Source: an uncultured Clostridia bacterium (GTDB taxonomy: Bacteria; Bacillota; Clostridia; Oscillospirales; Ruminococcaceae). Taken from it: 64,000 bases of DNA. Shown in pieces: positions 43,617 through 64,000 of the stretch (position 1 is its first letter; each line of letters opens with the position of its first letter). Position numbers and translations under genes: made by a program. The DNA lies in assembly GCA_947630845.1 (NCBI GenBank), contig CANRJB010000006.1, forward strand, positions 1-64,000, given 5' to 3'. A model generated the notes under the pieces. It searched no databases and was not told the DNA's origin. It saw only the letters and a list, made by a program, of their open reading frames with translations.

Positions 43617-43733
43617 CTGCTGTTCTTTACAGAACATTCTACCCGAACGCACAAGCCGCTTCTGCGTGTGACGGATACGCTTGAAAACCGTGAAAAGTAC
43701 GCTGCATTTCTGAATAAGGATGAAAAAGAATAA
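43617..43733 (+). CDS. Possible 38-residue protein with CTG start or damaged start
   Basis: An open frame with protein-like composition runs to the TAA at 43731. It starts LLFFTEHSTRTHKPLLRV and ends KYAAFLNKDEKE. It begins after AAAGGCGGTGAG, but no ATG, GTG or TTG is in frame; the nearest candidates are CTG at 43617 and 43620. A GTG at 43612 is out of frame by one base, so one extra G would restore a normal start. It sits directly behind a strong promoter and ends one base before the likely start of the next gene. It may be a short protein, a frameshifted gene or a leader peptide. Confidence 0.4.
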   Translation: MLFFTEHSTRTHKPLLRVTDTLENREKYAAFLNKDEKE

Positions 43734-43734
43734 C

Positions 43735-45567
43735 ATGAAGAAGAAACTGGAATCTTTTTTGCTTGATGTGCAAAAACCGTCACGCTACTGCGGCGGTGAA
43801 GTCGGGCAGATCGTAAAGGACAAGGAAAAGGTGGACGTGCGGTTTGCGTTCTGCTTTCCGGATATCTATGATGTGGGCATGTCGCACCTTGGGATGAAGA
43901 TCCTCTATTCGCTCATCAATGAGCGTGAGAATTACTGGTGCGAACGTGTCTTTGCGCCGTGGCAGGATATGGAGGAGATCATGCGCAGAGAGGGCATTCC
44001 GCTCTATGCGCTCGAGAGTCTTGATCCGGTGAAGGAATTTGATTTTGTCGGCTTTACGCTGCAATATGAGATGTCCTACACAACAATTCTCAATATGCTT
44101 GATCTTGCAGGTATTCCCATCTGGCAGAGGGAACGGGGCGAGAACATTGCGCCGATGGTGGTGGCAGGAGGACCTTGCTGCTGCAATCCCGAACCGTTGG
44201 CAGATTTTTTTGATCTGTTTATTTTGGGAGAGGGCGAAGAAGTCAATCTGGAGCTGATGGACTTATACCGTGACATGCGTGACAGAGGTGCGTCACGTTC
44301 GGAATTTCTGAGGGCAGCCGCACAGATCGAGGGCATCTATGTGCCGTCGCTGTACGATGTGGCATACCATGCAGACGGCACAGTAAAGTCGGTCACGCCG
44401 CAGGGACATGCACCTGCTGTTGTGAGAAAGCGTGTGATCGTTGACTTTGACAAGGTGTACTATCCGGAACAGGTCGTCGTGCCGTTCATCGAGATCGTGC
44501 ATGACAGGGTGTCGGTCGAGGTGCTGCGTGGCTGCATCAGGGGCTGCCGGTTCTGTCAGGCAGGCTTTTTATACCGACCGTTCCGGGAAAAATCGCCGGA
44601 AACCATCTGTGCAGAGGGCAGGGCATTGTGTGAGCATTCCGGCTATGATGAGCTGTCGCTCTCATCGCTGAGTACCTCCGATCATTCCCGTCTGGAGGAA
44701 ACGCTTGATGAGATGCTGACCTATACGGCACAGCGGCATATCAACCTGTCGCTGCCGTCCTTGCGTGTGGACAACTTTTCGCAGTCAGTGCTGGATAAGA
44801 TCACAGCCGTCCGCAAGAGCGGACTGACCTTTGCGCCCGAAGCAGGCACACAGCGTCTGCGTGATGTCATCAACAAGAATGTCACGGAGGAAGAACTCAT
44901 GCGCACCTGCAAGATCGCCTTTGACGGGGGCTATACACAGGTGAAGCTCTACTTCATGATGGGACTGCCGACGGAAACGGATGATGATATTGTGGGAATT
45001 GCTGACCTTGCGCAAAAAGTGGTGGATCTGTTTTATGACATGCCCGACCGGGCAAAGGGAAAGCTGCAAGTGAGCATCAGTGCGGCGACATTTGTCCCGA
45101 AGCCGTTCACACCGTTTGAATTTGAGCCGCAGATGGAGAAGGAAGAGATCCTCCGCCGTCAGGAGATCCTGCGCAGGGCTGTGAAGTCGAAGAGGGTCAG
45201 AGTCAGCATGCATGTATCCGATGTCAGCCAGATAGAAGCGGTACTGGCACGAGGTGACAGACGGCTTGGGCGTGTGCTGTATGAGGTATGGAAAAACGGC
45301 GGACATCTTGATAGCTGGGAGGAGTATTTTGATGCCGGACGCTGGTATGCGGCATTTGAGACATGCGGACTTGATCCGGCATTCTATGCTAACCGCAGGA
45401 GGGACTATGAGGAAGTCATGCCGTGGGATCATATTGACTACATGGTGTCGAAGCAGTTTCTCATCCGTGAGAACGAGAAGGCACATGCCGGCGTGATCAC
45501 GCCGACGTGCAGGGAGCAATGCGCCGGCTGTGGTGCAAACAGTTGTCTGGGGAGGGCATGCTTTTGA
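43735..45567 (+). CDS. TIGR03960-family B12-binding/radical-SAM protein
   Basis: This protein of about 610 aa has an N-terminal B12-binding-like fold ('FPDIYDVGMSHLGMKILYSLIN') and a radical-SAM core with C-x3-C-x2-C in 'RGCIRGCRFCQAG'. A cysteine-rich end ('EQCAGCGANSCLGRACF') closes it. Family members pair with TIGR03936, as here. The reaction is not established. The ATG at 43735 directly follows the small ORF's stop, suggesting coupling; ATG 43720 would add five residues. Confidence 0.9.
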   Translation: MKKKLESFLLDVQKPSRYCGGEVGQIVKDKEKVDVRFAFCFPDIYDVGMSHLGMKILYSLINERENYWCERVFAPWQDMEEIMRREGIPLYALESLDPVKEFDFVGFTLQYEMSYTTILNMLDLAGIPIWQRERGENIAPMVVAGGPCCCNPEPLADFFDLFILGEGEEVNLELMDLYRDMRDRGASRSEFLRAAAQIEGIYVPSLYDVAYHADGTVKSVTPQGHAPAVVRKRVIVDFDKVYYPEQVVVPFIEIVHDRVSVEVLRGCIRGCRFCQAGFLYRPFREKSPETICAEGRALCEHSGYDELSLSSLSTSDHSRLEETLDEMLTYTAQRHINLSLPSLRVDNFSQSVLDKITAVRKSGLTFAPEAGTQRLRDVINKNVTEEELMRTCKIAFDGGYTQVKLYFMMGLPTETDDDIVGIADLAQKVVDLFYDMPDRAKGKLQVSISAATFVPKPFTPFEFEPQMEKEEILRRQEILRRAVKSKRVRVSMHVSDVSQIEAVLARGDRRLGRVLYEVWKNGGHLDSWEEYFDAGRWYAAFETCGLDPAFYANRRRDYEEVMPWDHIDYMVSKQFLIRENEKAHAGVITPTCREQCAGCGANSCLGRACF

Positions 45568-59994: not shown

Positions 59995-60030
59995 AAAAAA
60001 ACCACAGCATTCAGTTGCTGTGGTTTTTTT
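59995..60030. terminator. Bidirectional terminator between hup and pflA
   Basis: AAAAAACCACAGCA pairs with TGCTGTGGTTTTTT over a six-base loop. A-tracts and T-tracts on both sides serve hup (plus) and the pfl operon (minus). Confidence 0.92.
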
Positions 60031-60757
60031 GTATATGTCTGCGGATGCCGTTGAGGATGTGCAGGCGTGCCTGCTGTGCGGCTTCCTGCGTGGCAGGAGG
60101 GGTGTCGGCGAGGGGGTAGGGAATGCCAAGGGCAGCATATTTGGGTTTGCCCATGTCGTGATAAGGCAGGCAGTCCACGGCTTTCAGCGTTTTCAGCCCC
60201 CCGATACATTCTCCGAGCCGTTCCTGCTCGTCCGCATCATCCGTCCAGCCCGGCACAATGACATGCCGGATCCACAGAGGGATGCCCCTGTCACTGCAAT
60301 GTGCTGCAAATGCAAGGATCGTCCCGTTGCTGTGTCCGGTCAGGGAGCGGTGACGGTCGTCATCAATATGCTTGATGTCGAGCATCACGAGGTCGGTCAC
60401 ATTCAGTACCGTATCCGTCTCTTCCGGATGGGACGGGTCATAGCAGATGCCGGAGGTATCCAGACAGGTGTGGATGCCCCTTTCTTTTGCTGCCCGGAAC
60501 AGTGCTGCAAGGAATGCTGTCTGAAGCAAGGGTTCGCCGCCGGTTGCGGTGATGCCGCCGTTTTTGTAAAATTCCTTGTTCCGCTCATATTGCCGCAGCA
60601 GCTCCTCCACCGTCACGGGCTTGCCCCTTCCCTCCCATGTATCGGGGTTATGGCAGTACAGACAGCGCATCGGACATCCCTGAAAGAAGATGACGAACCG
60701 GATGCCCGGTCCGTCAACAGTTCCGAAAGATTCGATCGAATGGATAAAACCGGTCAT
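60011..60757 (-). CDS. pflA: Pyruvate formate-lyase activating enzyme
   Basis: This 248-aa radical-SAM enzyme generates the glycyl radical. '[26 protein letters not shown]' contains C-x3-C-x2-C, and '[13 protein letters not shown]' and 'LDTSG' follow. The ATG overlaps the upstream glycyl-radical gene by four bases, so the activator is made together with its substrate domain. The operon starts at the pfl promoter (63343-63371). The 3' end runs into the shared terminator. Confidence 0.95.
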
Positions 60758-60993
60758 ATTTTGTTGTGGAAGGTACGGGAGATGACATCGTCCTGCTGTT
60801 CTTTTGTGAGTTTTGTGAAGTTGACCGCATAGCCGGACACCCTTACTGTGAGCTGCGGATACTGTTCCGGATGTGCCTGTGCATCAAGCAAAGTCTCCCG
60901 GTTGAACACATTCACATTCAGATGGTGTCCGCCCTTCTGTACATAGCCGTCAAGCATGGTGACAAGATTATCGATCTGCTGTTGACTTTCCAT
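60754..60993 (-). CDS. Stand-alone glycyl-radical domain of pyruvate formate-lyase
   Basis: This 79-aa protein matches the last ~70 residues of PFL: '[20 protein letters not shown]', '[20 protein letters not shown]' and the radical loop 'RVSGYAV' with G54. It ends '[17 protein letters not shown]'. It resembles E. coli GrcA/YfiD in size and role but is closer to the true PFL C-terminus. AAGGAGG lies at ideal spacing before the ATG, so it is a genuine separate gene, not a frameshift product. The main subunit upstream lacks this domain, so the product is probably required for activity. Confidence 0.9.
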
Positions 60994-61056
60994 GATAAGT
61001 CCTCCTTATCGCATTTTGTATAGTGTGGTCTGCCAATGTTGGCATTCATGGTATTT

Positions 61057-61236
61057 CTACTCATCCATTTCCGCATTTGGTATCGCACAAGCTCCCTTTG
61101 GGGAGCATTCTGTGCTGTTGACGGTATGGATGACTGTCTGCTCTCCGGTTTGCAGATTGACATGCTGCGTGCCGGATGCAAATAACTCGTCAAGCATGGC
61201 AGCCAGTTCCTCTGCCTGTTCGTTTTCATTCTTCAT
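61057..61236 (-). CDS. 59-residue protein between the PFL subunit genes, unknown function
   Basis: This 59-aa protein starts [20 protein letters not shown], continues '[19 protein letters not shown]' and ends in a two-cysteine acidic tail ('[17 protein letters not shown]'). AAGGTG precedes the ATG, which lies inside the pflB end (11-base overlap). The '[16 protein letters not shown]' part resembles '[16 protein letters not shown]' of the glycyl-radical domain gene that follows, but the radical loop is missing. It may be a decayed partial duplicate or a small partner protein. Confidence 0.6.
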
Positions 61237-63310
61237 GAGCATCACCTTCTGCATTCTGCAAGATCGCTTCAAGATCAGGTTCTCCCGCAAAGACTGCCGT
61301 GTTCTTGCCGAGCGCATCCGGCACGATGGAGAAGGTATTGGAGATACCGTCCTGTGCATGGCGGAACGGCAGCTTTGCCACCGATGCAAGCGAAGCCACT
61401 GCGCCGCTGGAATCCCGTCCGTGCATGGGATTTGCACCCGGTGCAAGCGGTACGCCCTGTTTTCTGCCGTCGGGGGTGCTGCCCGTCTTTTTGCCGTAGA
61501 CCACATTGGAAGTGATGGTCAGGATGGACATGGTCGGCACGCTGTCCCGGTAGGTGTGGTGTTTGCGTATCTTGTCCATGAACGTCCGCACGATCCAGAC
61601 AGCGATCTCATCCACCCGGTCGTCATCATTGCCATACTTCGGGAAATCACCCTCTGTCTCATAGTCCACAACGATGCCGTTTTCATCCCGGATGCACTTT
61701 ACCTTTGCATATTTGATGGCACTCAGCGAATCCGCTGCCACCGAAAGCCCGGCGATACCGGTCGCAAAATAACGTTTCACATCCCGGTCATGCAGTGCCA
61801 TTTGCAGCCGTTCATAGCTGTATTTGTCGTGCATGAAATGGATGATGTTCAGGGTGTTGACATAAAGCCCTGCCAGCCATTCCATCATCTGGTCGTACTT
61901 GTCGATCACATCGTCATAGTCCAGATACTCCCCCTCCACAGGGCGGTACTTCGGACCCACCTGCACCTTCATGACCTCGTCAACACCGCCGTTGATGGCG
62001 TAGAGCAGACATTTTGCAAGGTTCGCCCTTGCTCCGAAGAACTGCATCTCCTTGCCTACACGCATGGACGATACACAGCAGGCGATCGCATAATCATCCC
62101 CATGTATGACACGCATCATGTCGTCGTTCTCATACTGGATGGATGAGGTACGGATGGACATCTTGGCGCAGAACCTCTTGAAATTCTGCGGCAGGCGGGT
62201 CGACCAGAGGATGGTCATATTTGGCTCGGGGGCAGTACCTAAGTTGTTGAGGGTGTTGAGATAGCGGAAAGAAGTTTTTGTCACCATGTGCTGTCCGTCC
62301 ACCGATACACCGCCGATGGATTCCGTCACCCATGTCGGGTCGCCGGAAAAGAGAGCGTTATAGTCGGGTGTGCGTGCGAATTTCACCATCCGCAGCTTCA
62401 TGATGAAGTGGTCGATCAGCTCCTGTGCTTCTGATTCCGTGATCAGTCCCTTTTGCAGGTCACGTTCGAGATAGATGTCTAAAAAAGTCGAGGTGCGTCC
62501 GAGGGACATTGCTGCGCCGTTCTGTTCCTTGACGGCAGCAAGGTAGCCGAAATACAGCCACTGCACTGCCTCCTGTGCCGTTGCGGCAGGACGGGAGATG
62601 TCGAAGCCGTAGATTTTGCCAAGTTCCTTCAGCTCATGCAGGGCGTTGATCTGTTCGGACAGCTCCTCACGCAGACGGATGTTCTCCGAAGTCATGCGGA
62701 CAAAATGTGTAGCCTTCTGGTGTTCCTTGTCCTCGATGAGCCTGTCCACGCCGTAGAGTGCCACTCTGCGGTAGTCGCCGATGATGCGTCCTCTGCCGTA
62801 AGCATCCGGAAGTCCGGTCAGGATGGCAGATTTCCGGGCAAGCCGCATTTCTGGAGTATAGGCATCGAAAACGCCCTGATTGTGGGTCTTGCGGTATTTT
62901 GTAAAAACCTCCACGATCTGTGGATCGACCTCATAGCCATATGCCTTGCAAGCCTGCTGTGCCATGCGGATACCGCCGAACGGCTGCAAGGCACGTTTGA
63001 AGGGCTTGTCCGTCTGCAAGCCGACAATTCGTTCCAGTTTCTGATTTAGATAGCCTGCGCCGTGAGATGTGATGGTGGAGACGATTTTTGTGTCCATGTC
63101 CAGCACGCCTCCGGCTTCACGCTCCTGCCGGGACAGCTCCATGACCTGTTCCCAGAGTGTTTTTGTCGCATCGGTCGGTCCTTCCAGAAAGCTTTCATCT
63201 CCGTCATAGGGAGTGAAATTTTTCTGGATGAAGTCACGTACATTGATGGAAGAGTTGCTCCATCTGCCGGGTGTGAAGCCCTCCCATTCCTTTGCAAGAT
63301 CTGTATTCAT
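61226..63310 (-). CDS. pflB: Pyruvate formate-lyase large subunit lacking the glycyl-radical domain
   Basis: This 694-aa protein covers almost all of PFL. '[14 protein letters not shown]' and the catalytic C411-C412 in '[20 protein letters not shown]' are present, and '[26 protein letters not shown]' and '[17 protein letters not shown]' follow. Full PFL continues with about 60-70 more residues carrying the radical Gly; here it stops at 'NAEGDAHEE'. The missing part is a separate gene downstream, and 694 plus 79 equals a full-length enzyme. With formate acetyltransferase activity it would turn pyruvate and CoA into acetyl-CoA and formate. Confidence 0.93.
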
Positions 63311-63436: not shown

Positions 63437-64000
63437 TTATTCGGAGCAATTGATTTGCAGATTTTTCCGAATGATTTGTGCATCACTTCTGGTATAAAAT
63501 GTGCTGCGTCCTGTTCCATGTCTGACAAGCGATCCCTGTTCTATCAGCTGCCTGATCGCATTTTCCACGGAAGCCTTGCTGAGTGTCGGACAAAGCTCCA
63601 TGACTTCTCTCTTTGTAAACTTCCCGATCTTATTGCAGACGGCACGACGCACCATCTCGATCGCAGACAGCTTCTCATCAACCATCGCCACACGCTCCTC
63701 GAAGTCACGGTATGCAGCAAGAATGGTCTGCAACAGATACTTGATAAAAGGCGTGGGATCTTCTGCGTTTTCCGTCCAGCCTTTCTGACACTGCTCCAAA
63801 GCATCGTAGTAAAGGTTCTTGTTCTTTGCGATCTTACTTTCAAGGGAGATATACCTACCGATCACATAACCAGAACGGTACAGCAACAGTGTTGTCAGCA
63901 GTCGGCTCATCCTGCCGTTACCATCGTTAAACGGGTGTATGCAGAGAAAATCATGAATGAACACAGGTATCAGAAGCAAAGCGTCAAGCTCCTGCGTATC
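63437..64000 (-). CDS. Fic-domain protein, N-terminus outside the window
   Basis: The 187 visible C-terminal residues contain the Fic motif 'HPFNDGNGRMSR' (His for AMP transfer) near the window edge. A winged-helix-like tail follows ('IGKFTKREVMELCPTLSKASVENAIRQLIEQGSLVRHGTGRSTFYTR'). This is the common Fic-plus-winged-helix class, which AMPylates or regulates targets; partner and substrate are unknown. The regulatory alpha-inhibitor, if any, would be in the missing N-terminus. No terminator was recognised after the stop. Confidence 0.85.
   Translation of the reverse strand, partial: DTQELDALLLIPVFIHDFLCIHPFNDGNGRMSRLLTTLLLYRSGYVIGRYISLESKIAKNKNLYYDALEQCQKGWTENAEDPTPFIKYLLQTILAAYRDFEERVAMVDEKLSAIEMVRRAVCNKIGKFTKREVMELCPTLSKASVENAIRQLIEQGSLVRHGTGRSTFYTRSDAQIIRKNLQINCSE

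Follow-up and report, generated by a model that had tools for sequence, protein, structure and literature searches.

The window analysed here is a 64,000-nucleotide stretch of an uncultured Clostridia bacterium of the Ruminococcaceae (GenBank assembly GCA_947630845.1, contig CANRJB010000006.1, positions 1 to 64,000), whose genome assembly is 2.03 Mb in size and 91.8% complete. Near the end of the window, four adjacent genes on the minus strand encode the parts of a pyruvate formate-lyase (PFL) and a radical SAM activating enzyme (Table 1). The PFL core contains the cysteine pair C411/C412 in the context ..IACCVSS.., and its tail past ALGK is free of cysteine. The end of the core gene overlaps the middle gene by 11 bases, and an AGAAGG sequence lies 8 bases 5' of the middle-gene ATG. 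The radical gene is preceded by an AAGGAGG ribosome site and encodes the motif RVSGYAV, with Gly54 as its glycine; its stop codon overlaps the pflA start by 4 bases (ATGA, 60757-60754). The pflA product matched TIGR02493 with 293.5 bits (cut-off 231.75). The first-pass annotation of this DNA had described a large subunit with the CC pair that ends before the radical domain, and a separate RVSGYAV gene with its own ribosome site and a pflA overlap; the coordinates, lengths and features of both agree with ours. It had read the locus as a two-part system and missed the middle ORF; the system consists of two parts plus a cysteine element.

Table 1. Genes of the PFL locus and two other open reading frames of the window.
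Feature	Position	Strand	Length	Basis or remark
PFL core (split)	61226..63310	(-)	694 aa	TIGR01255 and PF02901 match
Middle gene	61057..61236	(-)	59 aa	putative docking arm, then cysteine motif; relatives in an alignment of 53
Glycyl-radical subunit, GrcA3 type	60754..60993	(-)	79 aa	NF038360 and PF01228 match
pflA, radical SAM activating enzyme	60011..60757	(-)	248 aa	TIGR02493 match
ORF upstream of the core gene	63437..63979	(-)		motif HPFNDGNGR, which we take to resemble a Fic motif; no match in NCBIfam (E up to 1e-10)
B12-binding radical SAM protein	43720..45567	(+)		uncharacterised family TIGR03960, 989.9 bits

The core and the 79-aa protein complement each other along the PFL-1 model TIGR01255. 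The core passed the threshold of this model with 1136.3 bits (cut-off 994.2) and covered positions 1-665 of 744, with the radical domain absent from the same chain, and the 79-aa protein covered positions 658-743. The two parts thus sum to a full PFL, as had been proposed. The 79-aa protein aligned to residues 683-756 of E. coli PFL and scored 85.6 bits against PF01228, the 106 positions of which are divided into 2-50 and 46-106. It is not an unknown protein: with 167.8 bits (cut-off 158) it is a member of NF038360, the NCBIfam family 'autonomous glycyl radical cofactor GrcA3'. It did not reach the thresholds of TIGR04365 (YfiD/GrcA; 96.7 bits, cut-off 170) and of the GrcA2 model (106.3 bits, cut-off 145). 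The AlphaFold model of the core had a mean pLDDT of 71.4 and was poor near the active site and past residue 655.

The split was then followed through related genomes with NF038360. In the own family of the source organism (396 genomes), 84 genomes scored above the cut-off, all with short frames of 81-161 aa, and 2 further genomes just under the cut-off also had short frames. The best-scoring fused PFL reached 149 (G122, 799 aa). A class-wide sample of 291 genomes yielded 16 genomes above the cut-off and 2 just below it; all 18 radical genes were short frames, and they were distributed over 10 family codes, the own family among them. Among 78 genomes around a Gastranaerophilales record, 16 scored above the cut-off, all with short frames, and 5 others had fused frames. 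Named genomes were also scanned, with the small protein as the query; of the 550 relatives, the best 80 were kept, and all of these were split (80/80). The titles of these included Ruminococcus flavefaciens, Ruminococcus sp. YE71, Lachnoclostridium phytofermentans, Holdemania, Erysipelotrichaceae, Gastranaerophilales and Melainabacteria. Records without a MAG label were also split, namely Ruminococcus sp. YE71, Lachnoclostridium phytofermentans KNHs2131, Lachnoclostridium sp. An118 and Holdemania sp. Marseille-P2844.

For the comparison of loci, 85 split loci of the family, the window and the 80 named loci were combined to 166, which left 155 after removal of 11 duplicates; one fused family locus was also taken besides the 85 split ones. 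The split that the first-pass annotation had suggested searching for is therefore present in 155 distinct loci. RVSGYAV was found in all radical proteins (155/155) and ACCVSS in 148 cores of this set, and a pflA-like gene lay at most 1.3 kb downstream in 96 of the 155 loci. An SD-like site was present 5' of 158 of 165 radical genes. A frameshift or assembly artefact was rejected as the source of the split, because the same breakpoint occurs in 155 loci of differing sequence and SD-like sites stand before the radical genes. One locus (L217) has a GrcA3 gene and no core gene on its 8.2-kb stretch, and another (L126; G190 contig 19) has one in-frame TAG inside the core gene.

The radical protein could be either a subunit of the core or a spare part for another PFL, and these alternatives differ in whether a second PFL is present. 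In the source genome, PF02901 matched this core only, and no PF01228 domain was found beyond the two pieces. Of the 86 split genomes in the family, 80 were searched with TIGR01255, and 72 of these 80 are at least 90% complete. Among the matches listed in order of E-value, a full-length second PFL-1 was present in one of these genomes (G381, an 807-aa frame) and absent from the other 79. In G233 and G376, the core itself was fragmented in this search. The other matches listed were split parts, or weak matches of ~97-136 bits in frames of 828-861 aa, which we took for other glycyl radical enzymes. In two split genomes outside the family (G683 and G690), an arm match lay within 763- and 792-aa frames, and a fused relative may also be present there. 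Since no second PFL was found among the matches listed for 79 of the 80 split family genomes, the radical protein is a subunit there and not a spare. As far as genomes can tell, the radical domain is thus a separate gene and an obligatory subunit within the family, in line with the earlier claim of obligatory separation; the second intact PFL that would have contradicted this claim was found neither in the source genome nor in those 79. A reading in which the shortened core is undergoing decay and the small protein is a spare part, as YfiD/GrcA is in E. coli, for an intact PFL encoded at another site draws on the NCBI family name 'autonomous glycyl radical cofactor' and on G381, which has a fused PFL too, but it is very improbable and, within the family, was rejected on the second-PFL search, the more so as the GrcA (96.7) and GrcA2 (106.3) scores fail their cut-offs (170 and 145), the core is conserved and the breakpoint is identical.

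Relatives of the middle gene occupy the same place, between the core and the radical gene, in most split loci. An alignment of 53 middle proteins gave the consensus PxELAxLIDxLMxxGxGHxNI...VxTVxSTDCxGxxGACxQPTE, in which D18, G24 and C52 are invariant (numbering of the 61-aa reading from 61242). An Asp or Glu commonly stands before the first cysteine. Profile comparison (hhalign) aligned residues 5-34 of the middle protein with residues 2-31 of GrcA3 over 30 columns, with a probability of 92.8 and an E-value of 4.1e-7. Individual middle proteins pointed in the same direction: at E up to 0.1, NF038360 was matched by 19 of the 53 (best 4e-6) and PF01228 weakly by 4 of the 53 (best 0.0088), and the middle protein of the window, as a single sequence, scored 13.2 against PF01228, under the cut-off of 22.2. 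Judged from these alignments, the first half of the middle protein is homologous to the arm of the PF01228 radical domain, and to the arm only. The RVSGYA-type glycine loop is missing in the alignment of 53, with the cysteine motif in its place.

The second half of the middle protein had no convincing relative in Pfam, NCBIfam or the PDB. The PDB hits obtained with the middle profile, troponin C and BMP-2 among them (best E 0.059), appear to be chance matches, a PHROGs search with the middle protein was negative, and no known metal-site or Fe-S small-subunit family of Pfam or NCBIfam was matched. AlphaFold predicted a helix at residues 6-22 and strands at 27-31 and 37-41 (mean pLDDT 71.6); the Cys end was poorly defined in this model. 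For 50 pairs that are close in the radical gene, some of which repeat duplicate loci, the pooled dN/dS of the middle gene was 0.25; for looser, more distant pairs, the median was 0.55, and 96% of 323 pairs were below 1. By this measure, the middle gene is maintained by selection.

As a control, the middle profile was searched in 60 chosen genomes. It matched in full in all genomes with a middle gene (15/15) and in three of the four genomes without a local element. In the tail-type genomes (11/11) and in 8 of the 30 fused-PFL genomes, the match was to the radical-domain arm alone; no separate middle-type gene was found by this search in the 30 fused-PFL or the 11 tail-type genomes. A chance ORF is rejected by the conserved position and motif, the arm homology, the dN/dS values and the absence from these controls. 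The middle proteins constitute a conserved small gene family that no Pfam or NCBIfam model covers.

The cysteine element is not always carried by a gene of its own. Locus classes were assigned by regular expressions for 154 loci (the 155 distinct loci minus L217, which has no core on its stretch). In 104 of these, the middle gene lies between the core and the radical gene, and the core tail has no cysteine. In another 44, there is no middle gene, and the cysteines form a tail of the core, with motifs such as DCACCEPN, CSTGACATPTLFEGLD, GCCEG and the like. The middle gene lies past the radical gene in one locus (L183) and elsewhere in the genome in four (G190, G111, G288 and G177), the relocated gene of G177 being a weak match (E 4e-5). 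In the last locus (L208), neither a middle gene nor a Cys tail was found in 1.2 Mb of its genome. A middle gene and a Cys tail never occurred together in the operon (0/154). One locus (L187), called tail-type by the script, was reassigned manually to the class with a middle gene, since its core frame continues into that of the middle gene, probably through an assembly frameshift. Three loci (L198, L218 and L221) have a CGCC motif in the core, followed by an extension of ~20-30 residues (..YMTPLI..).

The cysteine counts of the core tails followed the same division. Tails of the middle-gene class contained 0 cysteines in 2198 residues, against 24.6 expected from the core frequency, and those of the tail class contained 109 in 1407 residues, against 15.8 expected (L187 was still counted in the tail class). 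At least two cysteines were present in the element of every locus that has one (153/153); the number ranged from two to five and was exactly two in 69 loci, and the smallest spacing between cysteines varied from 0 to 8 residues. The tail types are without the arm, and what all types share is the cysteines. To judge from these loci, the Cys element itself is retained, and what varies is its carrier, either a protein of its own or the core tail.

Fused PFLs served as the reference for the history of the split form. In 30 fused PFLs (L004-L033), the stretch from LGK to the arm was free of cysteine. Among the fused enzymes, the 799-aa PFL of G122 (L149, contig 4) is closest to the split ones, with 77.5% core identity; it carries an insert with CDNC before the arm, as if it were a re-fused split enzyme or an intermediate. 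In an unrooted FastTree phylogeny of 181 core sequences (413 columns), in which the fused rows come from one family, one branch with a support of 96 separated the split from the fused cores. Parsimony gave 7 changes between the middle-gene and tail types, at least 6 of which are forced by well-supported branches. Given this sampling of the fused rows and the lack of a root, the tree is compatible with a single origin of the split form but does not prove it.

Taken together, we consider it likely that the locus encodes a split PFL in which the radical subunit is obligatory and a Cys partner is regularly present. In this working model, the core would supply the barrel and the cysteine pair, and the Cys element, whether middle protein or core tail, would accompany the core. 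We infer that the parts form a complex: the N-terminal arm of GrcA3 (helix plus beta strand) would dock onto the core, and GrcA3 would receive the radical from PflA on Gly54 and present it to the core cysteine pair. The arm and the loop would move as a unit, because the cut precedes the whole arm and GrcA3 starts with it.

The E. coli enzyme offers a partial precedent. According to PMC8683613 and PMC12338860, its radical loop swings out to reach the activating enzyme and then returns to a position beside the active-site cysteine, oxygen cuts the protein at G734, and YfiD/GrcA can supply the radical in trans. In PMC12338860 (Table 1 therein), E. coli PflB G734A gave formate only with GrcA present, so that a core can function in vivo when the radical protein is provided separately. 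By analogy with YfiD/GrcA as described there and in PMC8683613, the previously suggested repair of oxygen damage by exchange of a small protein is plausible. On the other hand, PMC8683613 reports for E. coli PFL cut at 695 that YfiD binding was below detection and that activation was 32-fold less than that of oxygen-cleaved PFL, with wild-type activity once activated. If E. coli is a guide, such poor binding and activation speak against easy assembly; the natural cut of the split enzymes lies earlier, before the whole arm.

For the Cys element, the reading that we find most likely, although with less than even confidence, is that its dithiol occupies the core or its vicinity while the radical subunit is away, or encounters a misplaced radical, and would thereby act as a reversible quench or as a shield against oxygen cleavage. 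We favour a dithiol near the active site or the radical because the element persists when it moves from one carrier to another and because two thiols are enough, without a fixed distance between them.

Alternatively, the element could bind a metal, as an iron-sulfur or zinc site, and stabilise the open barrel edge or pass electrons. At least two cysteines, often three, in 153 of 153 loci, and the Asp or Glu that commonly stands before the first of them, are consistent with this. There is also a precedent among glycyl radical enzymes: 4-hydroxyphenylacetate decarboxylase and benzylsuccinate synthase have Fe-S small subunits. We regard metal binding as unlikely, since 69 of the 153 elements have exactly two cysteines and the smallest spacing over all elements varies from 0 to 8, a pattern not expected of a rigid site with four ligands (although the core or a dimer could contribute some of them), and no known metal-site family was matched. 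Two thiols with variable spacing would agree more readily with a dithiol that acts on the active site or the radical than with rigid metal coordination. Equally doubtful is a role of the element as a recognition or assembly part that guides GrcA3 or PflA to the core, with structural cysteines. GrcA3 is without a YfiD-like N-terminal half, so that something else may replace that half, and the middle protein has the radical-domain arm; however, what all types share is the cysteines and not the arm, which the tail types do not have.

Returning to the dithiol, the arm of the middle protein suggests where it may act: because the middle protein carries this arm, it may enter the slot of the radical subunit. 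A more specific version, which we hold to be possible but rather improbable, is that the middle protein is a decoy that inserts the docking arm of a radical domain into the barrel and brings the dithiol to the site of the radical glycine. Cells could then exchange the radical subunit for a thiol subunit and so convert the enzyme from an armed to an oxygen-proof form and back, and in other lineages the same dithiol would be tied to the core as a tail.

Compared with PflB (TIGR01255; E. coli structures 1h16 and 2pfl), the radical domain is here a separate gene and a cysteine element is added. The 79-aa protein shares its organisation, a separate chain with a radical loop, an arm strand and a C-terminal helix, with YfiD/GrcA of E. 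coli and with Y06I of phage T4; however, those proteins are spares for a complete PFL, whereas the radical protein here is the only one found. GrcA3 begins with the arm, whereas YfiD has an N-terminal half that is disordered (PMC8683613). The name of the GrcA3 family says autonomous cofactor, but its member here is the sole radical domain of the sole PFL found, and the NF038360 model leaves the middle gene uncovered. The middle protein resembles the Fe-S small subunits HpdC and BssB/BssC in that it is small, carries cysteines and has its gene next to that of a glycyl radical enzyme, but differs from them in that it is akin to a radical-domain arm and that two cysteines suffice.

In the PDB, the core of the window matched two entries named 'Formate acetyltransferase', 38la (687 aa) and 38lb (739 aa), with an E-value of 0, and no radical-domain query matched them. 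They are PFL cores without the radical domain, either as a natural split or as a construct, and others seem to work on such cores. In a VIA-align search (library to 2026-04-08), 38la and 38lb were not among the 50 matches listed. Among the papers listed in searches of the open-licence PMC literature, none dealt with a natural split PFL, GrcA3 or a Cys partner. With the separate radical protein already in NCBIfam as GrcA3 and cores without a radical domain in the PDB, the split is not wholly new; the Cys partner and the either/or rule of its carrier are new.

PFL handles much of the carbon flow in fermenting gut bacteria, and its weak point is oxygen cleavage at the radical glycine. Our findings suggest that proteins annotated as 'GrcA3' in genomes are subunits rather than spares. 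The Cys element has persisted although it moved several times from gene to tail or the reverse, and, if the decoy reading is true, the middle protein would serve a glycyl radical enzyme as a subunit devoted to the quenching of its radical. The split enzymes provide naturally separable parts for EPR and mixing experiments, with which the storage, quenching and renewal of the glycyl radical become testable.
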